Part shown: positions 10,554 through 22,064 of the stretch, in pieces
Layout of the letters: the number at the start of each line of letters is the position of its first letter
Numbering within the stretch: the first letter of the stretch is position 1
DNA from: Acidimicrobiales bacterium
GTDB taxonomy: Bacteria > Actinomycetota > Acidimicrobiia > Acidimicrobiales > Acidimicrobilacustridaceae
Length of the DNA stretch: 64,000 bases
NCBI GenBank assembly: GCA_025455885.1
Contig: JALOLR010000008.1
Coordinates: 124,001-188,000 of the forward strand
Direction: 5' to 3'
The notes under the pieces: generated by a model
Told to the model about the DNA's origin: nothing
What the model saw: the letters and a program-made list of their open reading frames with translations, nothing else
Database searches by the model: none
Translations under genes and position numbers: made by a program

Positions 10554-12908
10554 TCAGTCGATCCCGAACCAGGCCCGGACCTGCTCCTCGTGGTTGGCGT
10601 AGCCGTCGCCGGACACGTCGACGATCACCCGGTCGATGGTGCCCCCGGTGAACGGGAACGGGGCCTGGTACTCGGGGGTCACCGCCGACGCGCTGTCCCG
10701 TCCGACGCAGATGCCGTCGCCGGTGAGGCAGAAGTAGCCGGGTTGGGTGATGATTGTTCCCTGCCCCACCTGCCGGTCGTCCACGTACAGCGTCAGGGTG
10801 CCCTCGGTGCCGGGCATGTCGGGCCGTGAGCTCGGCCCCGAGGCGGTGAACTCCGCCACGCACAGGTGGTCACCCGGCTCCAGCGCCGAGGTGGCCACCA
10901 CGTCCTGGAGGACGGTGCCGATCCAGTTGAACGTGTAGCGGAGCCGCCCGTCCTTGACGTACAGGCTGTGGCCGCCCGGCACGCCGCCGGCGGCCCAGAT
11001 GACCCCCTCGACCTCGGGGGAGGTGACGGACACGTGCGCGGCGATGGTGTACGAGCGTCCCGGCAGCTGCGGCCCGCTGGACTCGGGGACGTCGGCGGTG
11101 TTCGGGTAGAAGACGTACTGGTCCCGGTCGGGTGAGCCGTGAGGGCGCTCGGCCAGCACCTGCTCGAGGGCGCTGCGGTCGTCGAGGGGCAGGCCCTGGT
11201 AGATGCCGGCGTAGTAGAACCACAGGCCCTTCAGCTGCTCGACCTTCTCCGGGTGGTCGGCGGCGACGTTCCGGCTCTGGGAGCGGTCGGTCTCGAGGTG
11301 GTACAGCTCCCACTCGTCCTTGTCGAAGTTGCCCCAGCTGGACAGCGGCGGGTGCACGGTGCAGGCCAGCCAGCCGTCGTGGTAGATCGAGCGCTGGCCG
11401 AGCATGGCGTAGAACTGCGTGCGCTTGCCGGGGACCGTCGGGTCGGTCAGCGCCGCCGCGAAGCTCTCACCCTCGATCGGGCTCTGCTGATGGCCCTTGA
11501 TCACCTCGGGCGGGGTGATGCCGAGCAGGTCGTACACCGTCGGCACCACGTCGACGGCGTGGATGTACTGCTGGCGGGGCGTGGGATCCGGTGCGATCCG
11601 GGACGGCCAGGCGACGATGCACATGTCCGCGGTGCCGCCCTCGGCGCCTGCCCAGCGCTTCCAGTAGGGGAAGGGCGTGTCGAGCGCCCAGGCCCAACCG
11701 GTGTTGTAGTGGTTGTTGGATGCGGGGGTCCCCAACTCGTCGAGGTGCGGCATGGTGGTCTCGACGGTGTCGGCGACGCCGTTGAAGAAGCGCCACTCGT
11801 TGAAGCTCCCGTTGGGGCCGCCCTCACCGCTGGCGCCGTTGTCGGACACCACCACGATGAGCGTGTTGTCGATCTCGCCGGACTCCTCGAGGTAGTCGAG
11901 CACCCTTCCGAGCCGGTCGTCGTAGTAGGAGATGTAGCCGGCGAAGACCTCGGCCATGCGGACGAACATGCGCCGCTCGTCGTCGTTCAGCGTGTCCCAC
12001 GGGCGCACGGTGTCGAGCGCCGGCCAGGGTTGGCCGTCGGGGCCGGTGCGGTCCGGTTCGCCGTGCGGGTTGATCGGCGAGAGCTCCGTGCCCTCGGGGA
12101 GCAGCCCCATCTCGATCTGGCGGGCCAGGATCCCTTCCCGGATGGCCTCGTAGCCCTCGTCGAACACGCCGCGGTAGCGGTCGGCCCATTCGAGGGGTAC
12201 CAGGTGCGGGGCGTGGCCGGCCTGCGGCGCCAGGTACATGAAGAAGGGCTTGTCCGGGTCGATGACCTTGGCGTCGCGGATGAACTCGACCGCCCGGTCG
12301 GCCAGGTCGTCGGCCAGGTGGTAGCCGTCGTCGGGCCGGCCCGGCGGCTCCACCGGGTGGTTGTCGTGGACGAGGTCCGGGAAGTACGAATTGGTCTCGC
12401 CGCCCAGCCATCCGTAGAAGCGCTCGAAGCCCCGACCGAGGGGCCAGCGGCCCTTGAAGGCCGCCAGGTTGCACTCCTCACCGGGTGTCAGGTGCCATTT
12501 GCCGACGCAGTAGGTGTTGTACCCCTGCTCGGCGAGAACCTCGGAGATGAAGCCGTTCTCGAAGGGGATGCGCGTCGAGATGCCGGGGAAGCCGGAGGCG
12601 AACTCGGCGATGGTCGCCATGCCGTTCGAGGTGGCGTTGCGGCCCGTCAGCAACGAGGCACGGGTGGGCGAGCACAGCGCCGTGGTGTGGAAGTTGGCGA
12701 AGGTGACCCCCCGCTCCTGGATGCGGCGCATGTTCGGGCACTGCACCGGGCCGCCGAAGAGGTCCATGGTGGCGTAGCCCAGGTCGTCCCACGCCAGGAA
12801 CAGGACGTTCGGCGCGCCCTCCGCGGCGCGGGGCGCCAGGTACGGGGCCCAGTCCGGTTCGGAGTCGCGGATGTCGAGCTCGATGCGGCCGTTGAAGTGC
12901 GTCGGCAC
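10554..12908 (-). CDS. Arylsulfatase (type I sulfatase)
   Basis: The 784-residue protein carries the sulfatase signature LCSPTRASLLTGRN, in which Cys79 would be converted to formylglycine, with metal-binding aspartates in AWDDLGYATMD (Asp41, Asp42), GKWHL, and the late DNG motif (VVVSDNGASGEG). A C-terminal region of about 200 residues after the catalytic core is beta-rich and may bind substrate. No signal peptide is evident, so a cytoplasmic or non-classically exported enzyme is likely. It removes sulfate from sulfate esters. It may be co-transcribed with the DUF6325 pair upstream. Confidence 0.92.
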   Translation of the reverse strand: MPTHFNGRIELDIRDSEPDWAPYLAPRAAEGAPNVLFLAWDDLGYATMDLFGGPVQCPNMRRIQERGVTFANFHTTALCSPTRASLLTGRNATSNGMATIAEFASGFPGISTRIPFENGFISEVLAEQGYNTYCVGKWHLTPGEECNLAAFKGRWPLGRGFERFYGWLGGETNSYFPDLVHDNHPVEPPGRPDDGYHLADDLADRAVEFIRDAKVIDPDKPFFMYLAPQAGHAPHLVPLEWADRYRGVFDEGYEAIREGILARQIEMGLLPEGTELSPINPHGEPDRTGPDGQPWPALDTVRPWDTLNDDERRMFVRMAEVFAGYISYYDDRLGRVLDYLEESGEIDNTLIVVVSDNGASGEGGPNGSFNEWRFFNGVADTVETTMPHLDELGTPASNNHYNTGWAWALDTPFPYWKRWAGAEGGTADMCIVAWPSRIAPDPTPRQQYIHAVDVVPTVYDLLGITPPEVIKGHQQSPIEGESFAAALTDPTVPGKRTQFYAMLGQRSIYHDGWLACTVHPPLSSWGNFDKDEWELYHLETDRSQSRNVAADHPEKVEQLKGLWFYYAGIYQGLPLDDRSALEQVLAERPHGSPDRDQYVFYPNTADVPESSGPQLPGRSYTIAAHVSVTSPEVEGVIWAAGGVPGGHSLYVKDGRLRYTFNWIGTVLQDVVATSALEPGDHLCVAEFTASGPSSRPDMPGTEGTLTLYVDDRQVGQGTIITQPGYFCLTGDGICVGRDSASAVTPEYQAPFPFTGGTIDRVIVDVSGDGYANHEEQVRAWFGID

Positions 12909-12958
12909 GGGTGTTGCCTCCAGGGGCGTTGAGGGGTGGTCGGCCTTCGGGGTGGGCG

Positions 12959-13144
12959 TCAGAAGCGGCGGTCCCGACGATCCTCGCGCCGGTCACCCCG
13001 GTCGTCACGTCGATCCTCGCGGCGGTCGCCGCGCCGTCGCACCCCGTGGGCCACCACTGCGGCGGTCCCCACCGTGGCTGCGGTCCGCGCCACCGGTGCC
13101 CCGATGACCCCTCCTCGCCCCACACGTCCCGGTCGGATCGGCAT
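12959..13144 (-). CDS. Small basic protein with membrane-like segment, DUF6325 partner
   Basis: A 61-residue protein starts at the ATG 13144, only 2 bp after the DUF6325 stop. It has a hydrophobic alanine/valine segment (ARTAATVGTAAVVAHGV) and an extremely charged arginine/aspartate tail made of repeated RREDRRD units. In other actinobacteria a small SHOCT-type protein often follows DUF6325 genes, and this may be a shortened version without the SHOCT helix. No function is known. Confidence 0.6.
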   Translation of the reverse strand: MPIRPGRVGRGGVIGAPVARTAATVGTAAVVAHGVRRRGDRREDRRDDRGDRREDRRDRRF

Positions 13145-13146
13145 CG

Positions 13147-13590
13147 TCAGTCCTCCTCGACGGCGACGCTCATCGCCGCGATCAGCGCTTGGGTGGGGAT
13201 CCTGCCACTGGCGATCAGTTGGCCACCGGACTCCCGGGCGACGACCGCGAACGGCGCCGCCCACGTGTTCTCCCAGACCAGCACGCCGGCCGTGCTGCCC
13301 GGCTCCATCGCCTCGGCCAGGTGCTCCACGTCCTCGAGGGCCAGCACCTCGGCCAGTTGCCCTTCGAGGGCGGCGAGGGAGTCGCGGTCGCCGAGGTCCT
13401 CGAACTCGACCACGTCGACGGACCCGTCGGCGTCCTTGGTCAGCACCATGAGGTCCAGGACCCTGACCAGCTCGGCCTCGACCAACGACGTCAGCTCGTC
13501 GAGCACCGCTCCGGAGAAGTGCTGCTGACCGGCGGGGAACTCGACGACCAGGTAGTCGATCGGTCCCAGTTCGGCATCGGTGTCACTCAT
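13147..13590 (-). CDS. DUF6325-family protein
   Basis: The 147-residue acidic protein has GPIDYLVVEFP near its start, LVRVLDLMVLTKDADGS in the centre, and a C-terminal LVWENTWAAPFAVVARESGG segment, which fits the DUF1269/DUF6325 group of actinobacterial proteins of unknown function. The ATG at 13590 is preceded by GGAGG with 7-base spacing, so it is preferred over the GTG at 13596. It is directly followed by the small basic protein, and the two probably work together. Confidence 0.78.
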   Translation of the reverse strand: MSDTDAELGPIDYLVVEFPAGQQHFSGAVLDELTSLVEAELVRVLDLMVLTKDADGSVDVVEFEDLGDRDSLAALEGQLAEVLALEDVEHLAEAMEPGSTAGVLVWENTWAAPFAVVARESGGQLIASGRIPTQALIAAMSVAVEED

Positions 13591-13767
13591 CGCCACGCCT
13601 CCCGGCCCAACGGCGTCGATCGGGGTCGTTCCCCGCCGGCCCGACGATGCACCCGCCGCAGCCCGGCCGCCTCACCCACAACGGATGAACACCAGGCGGG
13701 GAGGGTGGCCGCCGACCGCGGGGCACGGTCGCGACGTCGCCGAGGTCCGAGCGGGCGTCGCTCCCGT

Positions 13768-15999
13768 TCAGCGGTCGAGGAGGCCCACGTTGCGGGCCTG
13801 CTCGACCGCGGCGCTGCGGCCGGACACCCCGAGCTTGCGGTAGATGGCGATGGTGTGGGACTTCACGGTGTTGCGCGATACGTAGAGGTGCTGGCCGATC
13901 TCGCCGAGCGTCCAGTGCGTGGCCAGGTGGTCGAGGACCCGGAGCTCGGCCTCGGTGAGCTCGTCGACCACACCGCCCCGCGACGCCAGTCGGGACGCGA
14001 CACGGTCCCCCAGATCACGCGCCCAGTCGTGCAGCAGGACGACGTCGGGCTCCTGGCGCCGGTAGGGCTCCGCCTCCTCCAGGAACCGCCGTGCCAGGGG
14101 CACGTCCCGGCCCGCCAACGCCGCTTCGGCGAGCACCAGCCGTTGTTGCACCTGGGCGCGTGGCACGCTGCCCGACAGCGACAGGAGATGCCCTCGGCAC
14201 AGGTCGGCGGAGTGTCGCCAGTCGTTGGTGCGACCCAGCTGGGCTTCGGCGAGGGCGGCGACCGCGAGCACGATGGCGTTGAGGGGGAAGCCGGCCAGGT
14301 TCGACTCGTCGAGTTGGCGGCGGAGCTCCAGCGCCAGACGCTGACCGGCGCCCCGGTCACCGGACCTGAGGTCGAAGAGCGCCAGCTGTGACCGGGCCAC
14401 CAGATCGATCGTCGAGAGCGGGGCGCTCGCGGACGCGACGAACGCGAGCCGCTCCCGGGGGTCGGGGAGCTCGCCGAGCATGTGGCCCGTGACGGCCTCG
14501 AGCAGCGCGGCCAGCGTCCACCAGGGGTTCCCCACCGGGCCCAGGGCGACGAGCCGCCGGGCGGCGGCGTGGGTCTCCGTCGTCCCACCCGAACCGCTCA
14601 CCACGAAGAGCGCGTCGCGTGCCTTCTGCAGCTGGTCGGTGGACCCGTCGGCCGGCGGGAGGTCGCGCAGGAGGCGGAGGCGCTGGTCCAGCTCCTCGCC
14701 CCGTCCGCGGGTCAGGGCGACCCACCCGGCCGAGACCGCCAGACCGGCGCTCTCGGCCACCATGGTCTCGCCGGCGGCGAGCAGCCAGCCCTCGACCGTG
14801 GCGGTCTGGCCGGCGTTCATGCACTCCATCAGGTGCTCCACCGCCACGCGTCCGGCGAGGACGGGGTCACCGCTCCCCACGGCCTGGCGGACCGCCGCGT
14901 CGGCGTGACCGGCCGTGCTCAGCCACTCGGCGGCCCGCCGTCGCAGGCGAGGCTCCTCCCCGGGCACGGGCGAGCGCAGCTCCGCCAGGAGAAGCTCCCG
15001 GAAGAGCGCGTGGTAGCGGTACCACATGCCGTCGTCGTCCAGGCCCGCCACGAAGAGGTTCTCCGACGACGCGAGCCGCTCCAGGCGATCGCCGCTGCCC
15101 TCCCCCTCCACGACGGCGTCGCACAGCGACCCACAGAGCTGCTCCAGCACCGAGGTGCGCACCAGGAACGCCCGGTCGTCGGGGTCGAGGCCGGCCAGGA
15201 CCTCGTCGTGGAAGTACGCCTGGAGCGCCGGATCGCGGAGTGGGAGGTCCGGCACCCGCCGGGCGGCGTCCGGTCGGCCCCGGATGGCCAGCACGGCCAG
15301 CTGGAGGGCGGCCGGCCACCCCCCGGTCACCTCGATCAGGGACGACACGGCCTCGGGGGCGAGGCCCGGCAGCGCCCGGTGGACCACCTCGGCCGCCTCC
15401 TCGTGGCTGTAGGCCAGGTCCTGGCCGCCGAGGATCTGGGCGTCGCCGCCGGCCAGGCGCCGAGCCCACCTGATGGCCGGCAGCGCCCTCGAGCACACCA
15501 CGGCCGTCGATCCGTCGGGGACCATGTCGAGGACCCGGCGGAGCACGGCCAGCGCCTCGGGGGACTGCAGCTCCTGCGCATCGTCGACAACGAGGATCCG
15601 GTCGGGGCCGGCGTCCCAGCAGCGCCCGAGCGCGGCGAGCACGCCGTCCTCGACGTCGGGGTGCGGCGCCGCGGCCGCGGCCACCGCCTCCGGCACCGCG
15701 GCGCCGGCATCGAGCGCCGCCACCAGGTTGCGGACGAACCGGACGGGGTCGTCGTCGGCGGCATCCAACGTCAGCCATGCGGCGGGCCGGCGGTCGCGGG
15801 CAACCCACTGCCGGGCGAGGGTGGTCTTGCCCGCCCCGGCCGGACCGCGCAGGACGACCAGCCGGGCGTCGGCGCCGTCCAGGCGATCGAGCAGCGCTCG
15901 TCGCGGCAGCTCGGGTGAGCGCAGCCGCGGCGCGCTGATCTTGGACCTCGACACGCCGGACAGCCCGTCGGCCCCCTGGCCTGCCTCTCCCTGGACCAC
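13768..15999 (-). CDS. MalT-like LuxR-family transcriptional regulator (LAL type)
   Basis: The 743-residue protein has an N-terminal P-loop ATPase (RGPAGAGKTTLARQWV near residue 52; Walker B ILVVDDAQEL), a TPR-like helical middle (about 350-650) and a C-terminal LuxR HTH (ELTEAELRVLDHLATHWT, VSRNTVKSHTIAIYRKLG). Such proteins are STAND ATPases that respond to a metabolite and activate transcription. Two GTG starts are possible: 15999, preceded by a purine-rich GGGGAGGGGG, and 15954, which would fit typical N-termini (SRSKISAPRL). The frame stays open further upstream only by chance overlap with the channel gene. Confidence 0.85.
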   Translation of the reverse strand: MVQGEAGQGADGLSGVSRSKISAPRLRSPELPRRALLDRLDGADARLVVLRGPAGAGKTTLARQWVARDRRPAAWLTLDAADDDPVRFVRNLVAALDAGAAVPEAVAAAAAPHPDVEDGVLAALGRCWDAGPDRILVVDDAQELQSPEALAVLRRVLDMVPDGSTAVVCSRALPAIRWARRLAGGDAQILGGQDLAYSHEEAAEVVHRALPGLAPEAVSSLIEVTGGWPAALQLAVLAIRGRPDAARRVPDLPLRDPALQAYFHDEVLAGLDPDDRAFLVRTSVLEQLCGSLCDAVVEGEGSGDRLERLASSENLFVAGLDDDGMWYRYHALFRELLLAELRSPVPGEEPRLRRRAAEWLSTAGHADAAVRQAVGSGDPVLAGRVAVEHLMECMNAGQTATVEGWLLAAGETMVAESAGLAVSAGWVALTRGRGEELDQRLRLLRDLPPADGSTDQLQKARDALFVVSGSGGTTETHAAARRLVALGPVGNPWWTLAALLEAVTGHMLGELPDPRERLAFVASASAPLSTIDLVARSQLALFDLRSGDRGAGQRLALELRRQLDESNLAGFPLNAIVLAVAALAEAQLGRTNDWRHSADLCRGHLLSLSGSVPRAQVQQRLVLAEAALAGRDVPLARRFLEEAEPYRRQEPDVVLLHDWARDLGDRVASRLASRGGVVDELTEAELRVLDHLATHWTLGEIGQHLYVSRNTVKSHTIAIYRKLGVSGRSAAVEQARNVGLLDR

Positions 16000-16112
16000 C
16001 GCCCCCTCCCCTTCAGGTACCCGGCGAGCGACGGCCAGCCTAGGACCGGTCTCGGCCGGTGTCGGCCCCGGGCGGGCGGCACCGGGTCCGGCAACCGCGG
16101 TTCCCCGCCGCC

Positions 16113-17240
16113 TCAACGGTCGGTGCCGAACCACCTCTCGTAGATGACGTCGTAGGTGCCGTCCTCGGCGATGGAGAGGAGGGCTTGGTCGAGACGCTCG
16201 GTGAGCGGGCTGCCGGGTGCCAACGCGATCCCGTAGTACTCCCTGTCGAAGACGGGTCCGACGATCGTGACCTTCCCCCGTCCTTCGGTCTCGGCGAAGT
16301 AGCGCAGGATGGGCGAGTCGTAGACGACTGCGTCGGTGTCGCCGCGCTCGAGGGTGGCGAACGCCTCGTCGGCGGTCTCGACGAGGACGGCTTCGATGCC
16401 GCTCTCGCGGAGGTAGGTCTCCGACGTGGTGCCCCGCACCGTGATGACCCGGCCGCTCTCGAGGTCGTCGACGCCGCCGACCTGACCCTGGATCTGCTCG
16501 ACGGTGAGGTTGGTGGTGATGACGGCGGTGAAGTTGGCGATGAACACCACCCCGACCACCATCCACATGATGGTGAGCACCCGACCGATGCGACGGCGGG
16601 GGACGCGGTCGCCGTACCCGACAGTCATCATGGTGACCATCGCCCACCACAGCCCGTCGAAGATGCCGTGGCGGGCGTCGCGGTGGAAGTCGGGGTTGTC
16701 GCGCCGTTCGACGAGCCAGATCACCGCTCCGACGATGAGGGACAGGCCGACCATGAGGACGATCAGCCACTCGACCGGCCCGGCGAAGAGCGTGGACCAG
16801 GTGTCGGTCAACGACACGCCGTCGGCGGGGCGGGTCATGACCTGGAGCCCCGAGTTGAAGATGGGCTTCGAGAAGTCGAGGGTCTCCTCGCGCTCGGCGG
16901 TGATGCTGATCGCGGCGACACCGGCGTCGGCCGCGCCGCTACGAACCGCGTCGAGCTGCGCCCCGACGGTGTCGACCCACTGGTAGTTGCTGACGAGGTC
17001 CGCCCGACCGGCGGCCTCTTCCCACAGGTCGATGCTGAAGCCTCGGGGGGTCTCCCCCTCGAAGACGAACGGCTCCGCCACCTTGATGACGACGTCCACC
17101 GCCTCGTCGACACCCGTCGCGCCCTCGGCGGGTGACGGGGTACTCGGAGGGGCCTCCTGGGCGGCGACAGGGGTGATCGACACCACCAGGAGGGCCATGC
17201 CGGCCACGGCCATCCGCCAGGTGCGACGCGAGGTCGTCAT
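16113..17240 (-). CDS. Ionotropic glutamate receptor-like potassium channel (GluR0 type)
   Basis: The 375-residue protein has a Sec signal peptide (residues 1-27, cleaved near PVAAQEA), a periplasmic binding lobe 1 (about 50-138), a membrane helix (about 150-173), a pore loop with the full potassium selectivity filter TVGYGD (about residue 207), a further membrane helix (about 215-245) with ANFTAVITTNLTV, which corresponds to the gating SYTANL region of glutamate receptors, and binding lobe 2 (about 250-370), which is split from lobe 1 by the channel. This is the GluR0 architecture: a ligand-gated K+ channel that opens on binding an amino acid or similar ligand. The ligand is unknown. Confidence 0.88.
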   Translation of the reverse strand: MTTSRRTWRMAVAGMALLVVSITPVAAQEAPPSTPSPAEGATGVDEAVDVVIKVAEPFVFEGETPRGFSIDLWEEAAGRADLVSNYQWVDTVGAQLDAVRSGAADAGVAAISITAEREETLDFSKPIFNSGLQVMTRPADGVSLTDTWSTLFAGPVEWLIVLMVGLSLIVGAVIWLVERRDNPDFHRDARHGIFDGLWWAMVTMMTVGYGDRVPRRRIGRVLTIMWMVVGVVFIANFTAVITTNLTVEQIQGQVGGVDDLESGRVITVRGTTSETYLRESGIEAVLVETADEAFATLERGDTDAVVYDSPILRYFAETEGRGKVTIVGPVFDREYYGIALAPGSPLTERLDQALLSIAEDGTYDVIYERWFGTDR

Positions 17241-17331
17241 CCGACGAACTGTAGAGGCCCTGCCCCGGGCCGAAGCCCAGATCGATCCGCCCGGCTCGAC
17301 CGCGCCGGGGCATGTCCCCGGCGGGCATGGC

Positions 17332-17562
17332 TCACCCCTGCGGTGGAACCGGCTTCCGGCCGAAGGCCAGGTAGGCGACGGGCCCGACGGGTTGCACGAA
17401 GCACCCGAGCGCCCACGCCCACCTGGGACCCCGCACCTGGTCGGCGGGGCGCCCGGCCAGGTCCCGCAGCGCCACTGCGGTCATCGCCAGCTCGACCGCC
17501 GCGGCGACGATGATGGCGGCCTGTTGACCCTGGCTGTAGTCGGCCCAGCGCTTCCTGCTCAT
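17332..17562 (-). CDS. PLDc_N-domain small membrane protein
   Basis: A 76-residue protein with two hydrophobic helices (AAIIVAAAVELAMTAVAL and WALGCFVQPVGPVAYLAFG) and the final FGRKP motif that is typical of the PLDc_N (cardiolipin synthase N-terminal-like) family. In larger proteins this domain anchors phospholipase D-type enzymes, and free-standing versions have no known function. The start at ATG 17562 is chosen because the family begins close to RKRWADYS; the in-frame upstream extension has no family features. Confidence 0.75.
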   Translation of the reverse strand: MSRKRWADYSQGQQAAIIVAAAVELAMTAVALRDLAGRPADQVRGPRWAWALGCFVQPVGPVAYLAFGRKPVPPQG

Positions 17563-17906
17563 CCCCGGTGACGCTAACCCGGCCCCCCGCACCCCGTGCG
17601 GCCGGATGCGGTCGGGAGAGCGGGGTCCCACGGATCGGCGGAACCGGTCCGAGCGCCGTCAGCGTCGACAACCGCACGGCCACCTGGAGCGCCTGCTCCT
17701 CACCCGCGATGGGTGATCGTCTCCGCTACTGTCCTCCGCCGGACGGGGCCGCAGGTCGTCGTCCCGGTGTTTCGGACGTTCACCTCATGGGGGCGAGGAC
17801 AACGGGCGCCGGAAGGGTCAGGATCACCACGGTCGTGTCGCCGGGACGTCGCGGAGGACGAGCCGACGGCCCGACATCGAACACCCTGCGCCGAGGAGTC
17901 ACTGCC
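17563..17906. other. Intergenic region with no recognised gene
   Basis: The 344 bp between two divergent genes carry no supported coding sequence. An open frame continuing upstream of the DUF2252 start has low-complexity, arginine/serine-rich content typical of a GC shadow. The promoters of the PLDc_N gene and the DUF2252 gene must lie here. I see no repeat or RNA element. Confidence 0.6.
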
Positions 17907-19292
17907 ATGTCCCACCCGTCCGTCGACGACAGCATCGAGATCGGCCGCTCGGCGCGTCGAACGACCCCCCGGTCCTCCCATGCGGACTGGACGCCGAGCC
18001 CGAACCGACGCGATCCGGTGACGCTGCTCGAGGAACAGAACGCCAGTCGGGTGCCGTGGCTCGTGCCCATCCGCCACGCGCGGATGTCGGTGTCGCCGTT
18101 CACCTTCTTCCGCGGCGCGGCTCGGATCATGGCCGCGGACCTCGCAGCCACCCCGGTCTCGGGAATCGAGGTGCAGCTCGGAGGCGACGCCCACCTGTCC
18201 AACTTCGGCGCCTACGCCTCACCGGAGCGTCGCCTGGTGTTCGACCAGAACGACTTCGACGAGACGCTCGCGGGCCCCTGGGAGTGGGACCTGAAGCGGC
18301 TGGCCGCCAGCTTCGTGGTGGCGAGCCAGTTCCACGGTCTCCCGGCGGTCGCCACGCGCTCGATCGCCGCCGAGGTGGTCCGGGCGTACCGGACCTCGAT
18401 GGGTCGGTTCGCGGGGCAGGGCTTCCTCTCGCTCTGGTACGACTACGTCGACGTCGACGACATCGGTGCCGACAGCGGCATGTCGGCCAAGGAGATGGAC
18501 AAGCGCCTGGACAGGTTCCGCAAGAAGGCGACGCGGAAGACCAGTCAGCAGGCGCTCGAGAAGCTGGCCGAGGTGGTCGACGGACGATGGCGGATCCGTC
18601 ACGAGCCCCCCGTGCTGTTCCCGCTGGAGCGACTGCCGGGCGACGAGGACCAGGAGCAGCTCCGGGCGGCGGTGGACCGCAGCCTCGCCAGCTACGCGAC
18701 GACGCTCGACGACAATCGCGCCGCACTGCTCGACCGCTACGAGTTGGTGGACGTCGGCGTCAAGGTCGTCGGCGTCGGCAGCGTCGGCACCCGCTGCCTC
18801 GTCGCCCTGCTGCGCGGCCGCGACAACAGTGACCCGCTGTTCCTGCAGATCAAGGAGGCGGGTCCCTCGGTGCTCGCCGAGTACCTCGCGCCGAGCCCGT
18901 ACGAGCACCAGGGCCGACGCGTGGTCGAAGGCCAGCGCCTGGTGCAGGCGACATCCGACATCTTCCTGGGCTGGACCACGGGCGACCTCGCCGGCGTCCA
19001 CTACTACGTGCGCCAGCTGCGGGACTGGAAGGGCTCCGTCGACGTGGAGGCCGAGGGCGTCACCGCCGAGCAGCTCACCTTCTACGCCGACCTGTGCGGC
19101 ATGACGCTGGCGCGCGGCCACGCCCGTTCCGGCGACGCGGTCGCCATCCACTCCTACGCCGGGAAGAGCGCCACGCTGGACGAGGCGATCGTGACGTTCG
19201 CCGAGAACTACGCAGCACTGAACCTGGAGGACTACCACCGGTTCACACGCGCCATCGCCGACGGTCGCCTGGAGTGCGCCGAGCAGGTGTGA
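17907..19292 (+). CDS. DUF2252-family protein
   Basis: The 461-residue protein matches DUF2252, which has a fold related to protein kinases/aminoglycoside phosphotransferases: PFTFFRGAARIMAADL, GDAHLSNFGAYASPE, DFDETLAGPWEWDLKRLA, and later GSVGTRCLVALL and FLQIKEAG. The WEWDLKR and GDAHLSNFG motifs correspond to kinase-like catalytic segments. The start is the ATG at 17907 with GAGGAG 8 bases upstream. No biochemical role is established. It is followed by the small sigma-like gene, separated by 52 bp. Confidence 0.88.
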   Translation: MSHPSVDDSIEIGRSARRTTPRSSHADWTPSPNRRDPVTLLEEQNASRVPWLVPIRHARMSVSPFTFFRGAARIMAADLAATPVSGIEVQLGGDAHLSNFGAYASPERRLVFDQNDFDETLAGPWEWDLKRLAASFVVASQFHGLPAVATRSIAAEVVRAYRTSMGRFAGQGFLSLWYDYVDVDDIGADSGMSAKEMDKRLDRFRKKATRKTSQQALEKLAEVVDGRWRIRHEPPVLFPLERLPGDEDQEQLRAAVDRSLASYATTLDDNRAALLDRYELVDVGVKVVGVGSVGTRCLVALLRGRDNSDPLFLQIKEAGPSVLAEYLAPSPYEHQGRRVVEGQRLVQATSDIFLGWTTGDLAGVHYYVRQLRDWKGSVDVEAEGVTAEQLTFYADLCGMTLARGHARSGDAVAIHSYAGKSATLDEAIVTFAENYAALNLEDYHRFTRAIADGRLECAEQV

Positions 19293-19344
19293 GCCCGCCG
19301 AACCCGACGGCAGGGGCGGCCGTCACGGCCGGTCCGCACAGCGG

Positions 19345-19860
19345 GTGTCACACCCCCCGGGGATGCTGAGGGTGCTCCTCATCGGCGGACCCCGGAGGCA
19401 CACGTTGCGCTCTTCACCTTCCCCCTGTCCCACTGCGGACCCGGCGGCCGAGGCCTACCTCGCCGTCGTCGTCCGCACCGTCCAGCACCTGGCGGCTCGG
19501 CGCCACGGCATCGACGTGGCCGACGACCTCGTCCAGCTCGTGGCCACGCAGTTCTGGCCCCGTCGGGCCGAGTACATGGCCAACTACGCCCCGGAGGCGT
19601 TCGCGGCGGTGGCGTTGCGGTCCCGTGCCGACCAGCTGCGTCGTTCCGAGCGCATCCAGCGCGCCGAGGGGGCCCGCCTCCACGTGGACGCCCACGGTCT
19701 GCGCCGCCCGTGGCGCGACCGGGCGCTGGTGCTGCTCGTCGACGGCGGCGGCTGCACCGTCACCGAGGCGGCCGACCGGGTGGGGCTGAGCCGGGCCTAC
19801 GCCAACCGGGAGCTCACCCGCATCCGGGCCGTGCTGCGCGAGGCGGTGGGTGCGGCATGA
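19345..19860 (+). CDS. Small sigma-70-like (ECF-type) factor
   Basis: The protein of up to 171 residues has a sigma region 2-like part (AYLAVVVRTVQHLAARRHG, DDLVQLVATQFW, then FAAVALRSRADQLRRSERI) and a region 4-like HTH (DRALVLLVDGGGCTVTEAADRVGLSRAYANREL). The spacing is that of a minimal ECF sigma factor. The true start may be later than 19345; a TTG near 19405 is an alternative. The stop overlaps the ATG of the next gene (19857-19860), which suggests that the two products interact. Confidence 0.62.
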   Translation: MSHPPGMLRVLLIGGPRRHTLRSSPSPCPTADPAAEAYLAVVVRTVQHLAARRHGIDVADDLVQLVATQFWPRRAEYMANYAPEAFAAVALRSRADQLRRSERIQRAEGARLHVDAHGLRRPWRDRALVLLVDGGGCTVTEAADRVGLSRAYANRELTRIRAVLREAVGAA

Positions 19861-20282
19861 GCCCGGGCGGGCGGGACGAGGAGACCGTCGAGGTCCGGCT
19901 GCGCTACCGGCCGGTGGGCGACGTCCTCACCGTGTCGGTGCGCTCCGAGGCGCCACCGGGGCCGATCGGCCGGACCGAGCTCGACGACGCCACCTCGATC
20001 GAATGGACGCGGCGACCCGACGGAACCGAGCAGATGACCGCCCTGCAGCTCCTCGACGCACGGTCGTCGATCACCGATGGCCGAGGGTTCGACGTGCTCC
20101 CCGAGGCGCTCCGAGCGGCGGCACTGGATCTGATCGACCCGGGGCGCCACCACCACGACCACCCCTCCACGCACCGCCCGACGCACCCGACCGCCACCCA
20201 CGATTCGTGGGTCCGCACGACCGCTGACGCCCTCGTCGTTGCACTCCCTCGCGCCGCCGGTGGTCGGCACGGACCGGGGTGA
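19857..20282 (+). CDS. Hypothetical protein coupled to sigma-like factor
   Basis: The 141-residue soluble protein starts at an ATG that overlaps the stop codon of the sigma-like gene. The first 100 residues form alternating strands (VEVRLRYRPVGDVLTVSVRS, LDDATSIEWTRR), and the C-terminus has a His-rich DPGRHHHDHPSTHRPTHP stretch that could bind metal. There is no membrane segment, so it is not a classical membrane anti-sigma factor, but the overlap makes an anti-sigma or co-regulator role possible. I do not recognise a family. Confidence 0.6.
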   Translation: MSPGGRDEETVEVRLRYRPVGDVLTVSVRSEAPPGPIGRTELDDATSIEWTRRPDGTEQMTALQLLDARSSITDGRGFDVLPEALRAAALDLIDPGRHHHDHPSTHRPTHPTATHDSWVRTTADALVVALPRAAGGRHGPG

Positions 20283-20299
20283 CGAGGCGCGCCGACGCC

Positions 20300-20322
20300 C
20301 GGGCCGCGGTTCCGCCGGCCCG
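20300..20322. terminator. Hairpin between convergent genes
   Basis: CGGGCC at 20300-20305 pairs with GGCCCG at 20317-20322 around an 11-base loop, in the 41-bp gap between the convergent hypothetical gene (+) and the enoyl-CoA hydratase gene (-). Confidence 0.5.
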
Positions 20323-20323
20323 C

Positions 20324-21097
20324 CTAAGTGGGCGACGCGAAGCCGGCGACGAACACCGCGAGGGCGTCGCGCTCGCGGTCGAAGGCGGCGGCGAGCTCGG
20401 CTCGCTCGGGGGCGTTGAGGAGCCGCTTCACCTGGGTCAGGGCCTCGGGGGTGTGGACGGCGAGGCGTCGGGCGTGGTCGGCGGTGACGTCGAGCAGCTC
20501 GTCGGGGTCGCAGAGCTGCCAGGCCAGCCCCATGGCCAGGGCCTGGTCGGCGGTGATCCACTCCGACGACAGCAGCGTCCAGGCGGCCTGTTGGCGGCCG
20601 AGGAGTCGGGGGAACAGGTAGCTCGACCCGGCCTCGGTGGGTGCGCCGAGCTCGGTGAACGGGCACCGCAGGCGGGCCTCGGTGGACATGAACACGACGT
20701 CGGCGAAGGCCAGCATGGTCATGCCGAACCCGACGGCATAGCCGTTCACGGCCATCAGGAGGGGCTTGGGGAAGTCGGCCAGGGTGTCGAGGAGCCGATC
20801 GAACCCACTGCCGTCACCGGTCTCCTCGACGTCGTCGGTGTCTCCGGTTGCCTCGGTGTCGTCGGGCTCCGTGCGGGGTTCGGCCAGCGCCTTCAGGTCG
20901 GCCCCGGTGCTGAAGGACCGGCCGCTGCCGGTCAGGACGACGACGCGCACCTCGGGATCGACGGCGGCGGCGCGGAGGGCGGCGAAGAGGTCCCACACCA
21001 GACCCCCGTCGAAGGCGTTGAGCCGCTCGGGACGGTGCATCGAGATGGTGCGCACCCGGTCGGCGTCGACGATCCGCACGTTGTCGAGGTCGTCCAT
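20324..21097 (-). CDS. Enoyl-CoA hydratase/isomerase family protein
   Basis: The 257-residue crotonase-fold protein shows MHRPERLNAFDGGLV, the oxyanion-hole segment SFSTGADLKAL, KPLLMAVNGYAVGFGMTML, and FTELGAPTEAGSSYLFPRL, with the conserved C-terminal helix. An acidic insertion after ADLKALAEP (residues about 75-100) is longer than in typical members. It would hydrate or isomerise an enoyl-CoA in beta-oxidation-type pathways. The ATG 21097 is preferred because family members begin just before the first strand; an upstream in-frame start at 21127 is possible. Confidence 0.88.
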   Translation of the reverse strand: MDDLDNVRIVDADRVRTISMHRPERLNAFDGGLVWDLFAALRAAAVDPEVRVVVLTGSGRSFSTGADLKALAEPRTEPDDTEATGDTDDVEETGDGSGFDRLLDTLADFPKPLLMAVNGYAVGFGMTMLAFADVVFMSTEARLRCPFTELGAPTEAGSSYLFPRLLGRQQAAWTLLSSEWITADQALAMGLAWQLCDPDELLDVTADHARRLAVHTPEALTQVKRLLNAPERAELAAAFDRERDALAVFVAGFASPT

Positions 21098-21124
21098 GGC
21101 CCCAACATATTCCGGGACCATCAC

Positions 21125-21151
21125 CACCCCGACGGGTCAGGGCTCGTCGTC
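21125..21151. repeat. 27-bp exact repeat, copy 1 (copy 2 at 31900)
   Basis: This 27-bp stretch is identical to 31900-31926. It contains a hairpin CGACGGG-TCAGGG-CTCGTCG with one mismatch. In copy 2 it covers the stop codon and last codons of the DUF4287 gene; here it sits between the enoyl-CoA hydratase start and a PIN-domain remnant, so it is likely a scar of recombination or a transplanted gene end. Confidence 0.7.
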
Positions 21152-21173
21152 CCCGACACGCTTCCTGCGCCGT

Positions 21174-21300
21174 TCACACCACCTCGGCCGCACACCGGAG
21201 ACCGGCGGCGTTGACGAGCCGGCGATCCGCGGTCAGCAGTGGACGTTCGACCGCCTCGGCGAGAGCGACGTAGCGGGCGCCACCCCTCGCCGGTACCGCC
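21174..21300 (-). pseudogene. PIN-domain (VapC-like) toxin C-terminal remnant
   Basis: The minus-strand frame ending at the TGA 21174-21176 reads GARYVALAEAVERPLLTADR, then RLVNAAGLRC and AAEVV before the stop. This is the C-terminal third of a VapC-type PIN ribonuclease: the YVALAEA helix and the conserved TADRRL aspartate. No start codon, no N-terminal catalytic aspartates and no antitoxin gene are present, so it is a remnant. Upstream codons lose similarity quickly. Confidence 0.7.
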
Positions 21301-21413
21301 GGGGTCTCCCCGAGCCCTCGACCGGGTTGTGAGCCGCCAGCGTCACATCCGCTCCCACCGGGGCTCGGATGCGGTGGTTGGTCGCGTCGCGTCTGCGTGT
21401 CGAGCGGTCCCTG

Positions 21414-22064
21414 TCAGCCAGCGAGGAACGCGATGACGGCGCGTACCCGCCGGTGGTCGTCCCCGTTGTCGGTAATGCCGAGCTTGAGGAAGACGGCGCG
21501 GAGGTGGGCTTCGACGGTTCGTTCCGAGACCACGAGGCGGCGGGCGACACCGGCGTTGGTGAGGCCCTGCGCGACCAGGGCGAGCACGTCGCGTTCTCGG
21601 TCCGTCAGCCGCTCGAGTGATGATGCTCCGCTTCCGCGCTGCGGCGTGACCAAGGTGGCGACGACGGTGGGATCGAGCGCCGAGCCGCCACCGGCCACTC
21701 GCGTGATCGCGTCGAGGAAGTCGTCGACGTCGAGCACACGGTCCTTGAGGAGGTAGCCGAAGCCGTTGGTACCGGCGAGCTCGGCGACACGCCTGATCTC
21801 GATGTGCTGCGACAACAGCAGTACCGGCAGCGCCGGGTCGCGTTCGCGCAGCTCGACGGCGGCGCGCACACCGTCATCGGTCCCGTCGGGCGGCATTCGC
21901 ACGTCCACGATCGCGAGGTCTGGTTGCTCGGCTTCGACGGCCTCCACCAACGCGCGGGCATCGCCGACTGCCGAGACGACAGTGTGTCCTGCTTCTCCGA
22001 GCAGGCGGATGAGGCCTTCGCGAAACAAGGCGGCATCGTCGGCGACGACCAGGCGGAGCGTCAC
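21414..22064 (-). CDS. NarL/FixJ-type response regulator
   Basis: The 216-residue protein has a receiver domain with acidic pair Asp9/Asp10, phospho-acceptor Asp54 in AIVDVRMPP and the lysine in GYLLKDR, then a LuxR-type HTH (LTDRERDVLALVAQGLTNAGVARR, VSERTVEAHLRAVFLKLG). The start codon overlaps the stop of the upstream histidine kinase by 4 bp (22061-22064), so it is the partner of that kinase. Confidence 0.93.
   Translation of the reverse strand: MTLRLVVADDAALFREGLIRLLGEAGHTVVSAVGDARALVEAVEAEQPDLAIVDVRMPPDGTDDGVRAAVELRERDPALPVLLLSQHIEIRRVAELAGTNGFGYLLKDRVLDVDDFLDAITRVAGGGSALDPTVVATLVTPQRGSGASSLERLTDRERDVLALVAQGLTNAGVARRLVVSERTVEAHLRAVFLKLGITDNGDDHRRVRAVIAFLAG

Follow-up and report, generated by a model that had tools for sequence, protein, structure and literature searches.

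The window, a stretch of 64,000 nucleotides from a contig of an Acidimicrobiales bacterium, carries on its minus strand an open reading frame of 375 amino acids (positions 16113-17240) that starts with ATG and has no internal stop. The encoded protein combines, in this order, a putative signal peptide, the S1 lobe of a ligand-binding domain, the membrane helix M1, a pore loop with the TVGYGD motif, a second membrane helix M2 and the S2 lobe (Table 1). As the frame stays open upstream of the called ATG, for 455 amino acids in all, the called start codon is putative; it yields a plausible signal peptide, with residues 7-30 hydrophobic and a helix modelled at residues 5-19 with low confidence. 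Three Pfam families match above their cut-offs: SBP_bac_3 in a split match over residues 55-372 (3e-21) and, inside its gap, Lig_chan (residues 158-263, 6e-18) and Ion_trans_2 (residues 169-245, 3e-15). The protein does not follow the full pattern of binding-protein family 3, its binding domain being split by the predicted M1-P-M2 segment. In the 3.29 Mb draft genome this gene is the sole match of Lig_chan (E 0.001), while Ion_trans_2 has two further matches.

Table 1. Features of the channel gene, in positions of the window, with the residues they encode and the basis of each assignment
Feature	Position	Strand	Residues and basis
GluR0-type ligand-gated K+ channel subunit (predicted)	16113..17240	minus	375 aa (P0001); ORF and translation, Pfam, PDB sequence matches, fold
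Putative signal peptide	17157..17240	minus	about 1-28; cleavage site placed by eye
S1 lobe, ligand-binding domain	16830..17093	minus	50-137; SBP_bac_3 match
R117 in S1	16890..16892	minus	alignment; counterpart of the alpha-carboxylate-binding Arg of GluR0
M1 transmembrane helix	16698..16778	minus	155-181; hydrophobic 148-180, model helix 155-178
K+ selectivity filter TVGYGD	16608..16625	minus	206-211; read from sequence
M2 transmembrane helix	16488..16595	minus	216-251; hydrophobic 216-247, model helix 217-251
S2 lobe, ligand-binding domain	16125..16487	minus	252-372; SBP_bac_3 match
T271-T272 in S2	16425..16430	minus	alignment; Ser-Thr position of Nostoc GluR0
D308 in S2	16317..16319	minus	alignment; counterpart of the alpha-amino-binding Asp of GluR0

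On the same strand, Pfam places an AAA-ATPase/LuxR-type regulator downstream of the channel gene (13768-15945) and a small PLDc_N protein upstream (17332-17631); no link of either to the channel was seen in the relatives compared. Some relatives carry an additional N-terminal domain and are called fused below, the others being short forms. Among the seven short-form stretches compared no conserved neighbours were seen, with a weak exception: enoyl-CoA-hydratase-like ORFs in L081 and close to the window gene match at 24%.

The best solved relative in a PDB profile search is the binding core of the Nostoc GluR0 (2pyy, E 5e-45), a sequence match far beyond chance, and a family profile of 18 members covers the AMPA receptor GluA2 continuously from S1 through S2 (~1e-40). 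The AlphaFold model used here, made with five sequences (pLDDT 72.7; an earlier one with two sequences was poor, at 51.2), shows two alpha/beta lobes, M1 (155-178), a pore helix (189-205) and M2 (217-251), the pore part being weaker (block pLDDT 57-74 for residues 201-240 and 42 for 241-250). Its best 26 Foldseek matches are AMPA receptors, and the full-length superposition on these is loose (TM 0.47-0.60, rmsd 6.7-11.4, among the 50 matches listed apart from 2pyy). For the binding domain, VIA-align ranks glutamate-bound 2pyy first (Z 31.4, rmsd 1.2 over 214 residues) and glutamine-binding proteins second (Z 29.9), with Z 28.5 against the Synechocystis GluR0 (1ii5). With glutamine-binding proteins fitting almost as closely as 2pyy, the ligand cannot be read from the fold.

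Matches to this protein occur in 12 of 61 relatives (E 1e-30), in 39 of 395 genomes of its class and in 10 of 396 genomes of its phylum (both E 1e-40), each count including the window's own genome and taking short and fused forms alike; the surveys are samples of class and phylum, and many of the genomes are drafts. Relatives covering at least 80% of the window query are also held by 22 plasmid records, with 28-36% identity among the matches listed. The plasmid relatives are counted by sequence match, and the comparison of filters covers the channels of the genomes. The hosts include Rhizobium, Agrobacterium, Paracoccus and Kovacikia, the genes H1-H15 lying on large plasmids of the first three and of others, and 13 of the 15 plasmid matches listed are annotated 'transporter substrate-binding domain-containing protein'. 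Taken together, genome and plasmid counts and these annotations make the genes look under-annotated rather than very rare.

GluR0-like K+ channel genes also turned up on three IMG/VR contigs, L099 (264 kb), L098 (40 kb) and L101 (18.8 kb), so that glutamate-receptor-like channels may be carried by phages. The copy on L101 is cut by the contig end, with a phage head maturation protease (phrog_207) some 2 kb away; the channel of L099 has radical-SAM genes and an HNH endonuclease in its vicinity, and PHROG 10776, of unknown function, matches the L098 and L099 proteins. Against phage records the window protein gave one partial match, confined to the S2 lobe, in a record of 9.9 kb. The L099 relative gave none at 1e-10 among 50,697 phage records and matched only itself in a second scan of viral contigs.

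After removal of duplicates, 54 distinct channel ORFs, the window's included, could be compared. The closest to the window gene is L002, from the Acidimicrobiales MAG Prado018, which is classified in the same family as the window's genome. The two genes encode the same residue at 231 of 373 codons, with dN 0.31 and dS 0.82, which indicates purifying selection on the window gene, and their pore residues are identical at 24 of 25 positions; from this identity and these rates we conclude that the pore is intact. A T[VI]GYGD filter is present in 50 of the 53 distinct channels that cover it, again counting the window's, and GYG is absent from three. In these (L013, L068 and L035) the filter is replaced, by TGGEAVK in two channels of different families (f18 and f51), which group together with 100/100 support, and by VGKNSA in G598; they are possible non-K+ channels of the GluR0-type family. 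A broken gene, L073 of G532, comes from a family with fused channels: its S1 lobe runs directly into the filter, M1 and the pore helix being missing, which may reflect decay or an assembly error. Recoding of an in-frame TGA, considered for four relatives, was dropped in favour of ordinary stops: in L009 the stop directly follows the conserved C-terminus, the alignments of L008, L010 and L011 hold no stop inside the residues shown, and a later profile search found none in L058, the same gene as L011.

The binding domain shares 93 of 207 aligned residues with the Nostoc GluR0 (about 45%), 41 of 87 in S1 and 52 of 120 in S2. By alignment, it keeps both contacts for an alpha-amino acid, R117 and D308. 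According to the available excerpts of Ger et al. 2010 (PMC2950845), the S1 Arg binds the alpha-carboxylate and the S2 Asp the alpha-amino group, and both are totally conserved across two channel groups. In our set, the Arg is found in all 52 distinct channels covering its position and the Asp in 50 of 54. The four channels without it (L006, L014, L015 and L070) are short forms that keep the GYG filter, and their ligand has probably changed. Loss of the Asp in 4 of 54 channels and of GYG in 3 of 53 means that family membership alone secures neither function. T271-T272 lies at what we take, from animal receptors, to be a ligand-contact pair. For the window channel, the family points to an alpha-amino acid as the probable ligand, L-glutamate or a near relative.

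Pfam, PDB profile matches and fold search thus agree with the initial annotation, which had named no strand and had proposed a GluR0-type channel in an actinobacterium with a full TVGYGD filter between split binding-protein lobes. The filter lies between the lobes, with SBP_bac_3 split around M1-P-M2, and the pocket, when compared with GluR0 as the annotation had suggested, retains its Arg and Asp contacts. The broken pore that it had named as its refutation was not found, given the agreement with L002 in pore and substitution rates.

Among the relatives, nine from other families have open frames of about 700 amino acids or more, with some 300 additional N-terminal residues. OpuAC matched this extra part in all five proteins tested (9e-48 to 9e-43) and gave no match in three short forms of the same Pfam comparison, in the window ORF or in the window's genome. 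The N-terminal domain of one of the fused proteins, L017, matches E. coli ProX (1r9l) at E 1e-62 over query residues 48-349. Overall, a ProX/OpuAC glycine-betaine-binding domain precedes the GluR0 channel in 29 of the 54 distinct channels, from families f28, f31, f40 and f51 within the class and f69, f84 and f91 outside it. The tree comprises 52 channels, the fragments L036 and L069 being left out and the fragment L065 kept as 'unknown'; in it the 29 fused channels and L065 form one clade with 100/100 support, and the positions of L034 and L035, both on long branches, are uncertain. L065 itself proved to be a fused gene divided between two contigs: its ProX part, of the fused type and beside BCCT and ProX genes, reaches the end region of contig C44.

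The contact residues of E. coli ProX, as named in excerpts of PMC10087775, can be followed through the 29 fused domains. W65, W140 and C142 are invariant, H69 is His in 25 and Gln in four, the position of W188 is always aromatic (24 Trp, five Phe), and G141 is Gly in seven and Ala, Ser or Thr in the remainder. Judged from these residues, the aromatic cage is kept. The filter TVGYGD and the Arg and Asp contacts of S1 and S2 are likewise present in 29 of 29. The position of T272 in the window protein is Ala in 25 of the 29, so that the amino-acid ligand of the fused channels may differ.

A BCCT transporter gene accompanies these fused channels. BCCT sequence, in some cases partial, lay near 27 of the 29 in the first stretches examined and near the other two (L086 and L087) with wider flanks; for all 29, a full-length BCCT gene lies no more than a few kilobases away in the contig of the channel. 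It is the next gene, or the next but one where a separate ProX gene intervenes. Such a separate ProX gene occurs at all 18 wide-flank loci (L074-L079 and L086-L097); Pfam confirmed six neighbour proteins as BCCT and four separate ProX as OpuAC, and many of the separate ProX proteins start, by eye, with a lipobox-like stretch. The orientation and order of the channel, BCCT and ProX genes differ between lineages, which argues for a grouping held by selection. In a ProX-domain tree rooted on E. coli ProX, whose outgroup branch is very long, fused and separate ProX form distinct groups, the separate one well supported (100/97) and the fused one weakly (59/41). A natural reading is that the fused domain would have arisen by duplication of the neighbouring ProX gene into the channel.

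Near short-labelled ORFs, with flanks of only 1.5 kb at most short and likewise at most fused loci, BCCT was found in one of 25 cases, namely L036, a broken gene adjoined by BCCT and ProX and coming from family f91, in which a fused channel also occurs. Genome-wide, one BCCT copy is present in each of the 29 fused genomes and in one of 19 short-form genomes (G598), a comparison that left out the channel genomes G532, G617, G631 and G752. The window's genome has no BCCT match. The other searched genome of its genus, G001, shows the reverse, a BCCT gene and no GluR0-type channel at the thresholds used. In the class sample, BCCT occurs in 35 of 395 genomes, 26 of them with an intact fused channel, one with a split channel (G617) and eight in which neither the class search nor the stretches examined gave a channel match. 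Of these eight, three have ProX beside BCCT (G659, locus L167, and G736 and G748, with loci L165 and L166 close to contig ends) and five have no ProX in the stretch examined, the contig of G734 measuring only 4.9 kb. That BCCT with ProX can occur without the channel, and BCCT without either, speaks against a strict three-gene unit. At L167, L165 and L166, where ProX directly adjoins BCCT with no channel in view, a substrate-binding protein is combined with a secondary transporter, which is an unusual pairing.

Our main reading, to which we give a probability of roughly 0.85, is that the window gene encodes one subunit of a GluR0-type K+ channel. An intact ORF, the domain order, the filter, the pocket residues, the predicted fold and selection support it; we infer ligand gating and K+ selectivity from the sequence, and the tetramer, topology, ligand and gating from the family. 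Four such subunits would assemble into an 'upside-down' pore like that of glutamate receptors; the N- and C-terminus and the clamshell that binds the ligand would then face the cell exterior. R117, D308 and the T271-T272 region would hold an alpha-amino acid, whose binding would shut the clamshell, pull on M1 and M2 and open the TVGYGD filter, and K+ would then move down its own gradient through the open channel.

For the fused relatives, the ProX-GluR0 fusion is likely tied to osmolyte handling, and fusion and neighbourhood hint that the channel helps the cell to withstand salt stress. Once betaine is available, K+ is released by bacteria such as E. coli. Our hypothesis is a dual-sensor K+ channel linking betaine supply to K+ flux, and we see an even chance that Actinomycetota, mainly Acidimicrobiia, possess a K+ channel with ProX betaine and GluR0 amino-acid sensors in series, kept with BCCT and a separate ProX and acting as an osmolyte switch. 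Importable betaine outside the cell, perhaps together with an amino acid, would open or close the channel and so adjust cell K+, exchanging K+ for compatible solute; betaine import through BCCT would thereby be coupled to K+ adjustment.

Alternatively, though we hold this to be somewhat unlikely, the ProX domain of the fused relatives could be a tethered betaine collector that feeds the adjoining BCCT and gates no channel. The loci of G659, G736 and G748, with a separate ProX beside BCCT and no channel in view, fit such a role; however, the fused copy forms one clade, is in frame and has its GYG filter intact in every one of the 29 cases, and joining a collector to a channel would be needless where a separate ProX is already present, as at all 18 wide loci.

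For the window channel itself, the alternative that fares best, which we regard as improbable, is a channel with a K+ filter that is constitutive or opened by a cue other than an amino acid, such as another small molecule or membrane tension, so that 'glutamate receptor' would be a label of descent only. The loss of the S2 Asp in 4 of 54 channels would agree with it, as would excerpts of PMC13099474, which suggest a possible response of GluR0 to tension and report that K+-uptake-deficient E. coli grows at low K+ with the Synechocystis channel. The window gene, however, keeps R117, D308 and T271-T272, and its binding core is 45% identical to one solved with glutamate bound. That the protein instead serves an uptake system as its membrane-anchored amino-acid-binding component, with the pore-like part a mere anchor, is very improbable in spite of the substrate-binding annotations of 13 of the 15 plasmid relatives listed and a binding domain nearer in fold to glutamine-binding proteins than to the Synechocystis GluR0, for Lig_chan and Ion_trans_2 match above their cut-offs in an M1-pore-M2 order, the filter is found in 50 of 53 channels and is under selection, and Pfam detected no ABC permease or transporter ATPase in the eight neighbouring ORFs (window 10554-22064).

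To our knowledge, very little has been established about what bacterial glutamate-receptor channels do for the cell. The window gene contributes a well-preserved actinobacterial branch, and adds a member to a known channel type that is commoner than the initial annotation thought: its statement that such channels are known in few bacteria holds for characterised channels and fails for genes, which matched in 39 of the 395 genomes sampled from the class, in 10 of 396 from the phylum and in 22 plasmid records. Opinions differ on the annotation's description of them as the ancestral form of animal glutamate receptors: PMC13099474 calls GluR0 an ancestral homolog, and PMC2950845 argues that Group 2, which is non-K+, stands nearer to the eukaryotic receptors (both in excerpts). 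In our view the chief interest lies outside the window, in the fused relatives as a new form of GluR0-type channel. Their gene neighbourhood and readable binding cage indicate one specific signal, betaine, and one specific partner, BCCT, so that the role of such a channel can be tested directly. If the osmolyte switch is true, the window gene would stand for the plain branch of a family of sensor channels, the one that senses an amino acid only. Among the papers listed from the open-licence literature we found no report of a ProX-GluR0 fusion, of glutamate receptors from Actinobacteria or 'Acidimicrobi', or on the GYG filter of a bacterial glutamate receptor; the only paper there combining GluR0 and betaine, judging by its available part, tried betaine on a placozoan receptor.

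The closest known systems include the Group 1 channels of Ger et al. 2010, which share the window protein's K+-type filter, split glutamate-binding domain and Arg and Asp contacts. That paper counted a GluR0-type topology in 22 of 100 candidates as of 2010; the excerpts of PMC2950845 list 12 members of Group 1, name no Actinomycetota among them and describe none with a ProX domain. NpGluR0 of Nostoc punctiforme (2pyy) has the binding fold, Arg and Asp in common with the window protein; its entry comprises the binding core only and its phylum differs. The GluR0 of Synechocystis PCC 6803 (1ii5) shares the S1-M1-P-M2-S2 order, GYG and the Arg and Asp contacts at low identity (18 of 52 and 17 of 68 residues in two segments compared), and its function was measured, whereas the window channel is known from its sequence. 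Excerpts of PMC13099474 (2026) ascribe to it K+ conduction, an inverted topology, from values partly without statistical significance, and a role in volume change; the paper presents its Synechocystis result as the first direct evidence that a channel of this type takes part in the response to rapid ionic change. E. coli ProX (1r9l) serves an ABC transporter as a free binding protein; unlike it, the ProX of the fused relatives is joined to an ion channel and lies near a BCCT transporter gene. Animal AMPA and kainate receptors, whose GluA2 is spanned by the window family profile from S1 to S2, differ by a further, third membrane helix and by a filter that is not of the K+ type, and the domain at their amino terminus belongs to a binding-protein class other than ProX. 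The fused relatives suggest that in bacteria, too, a second clamshell sensor joined the GluR0 core, which, if true, would be an apparently independent bacterial parallel to that domain.
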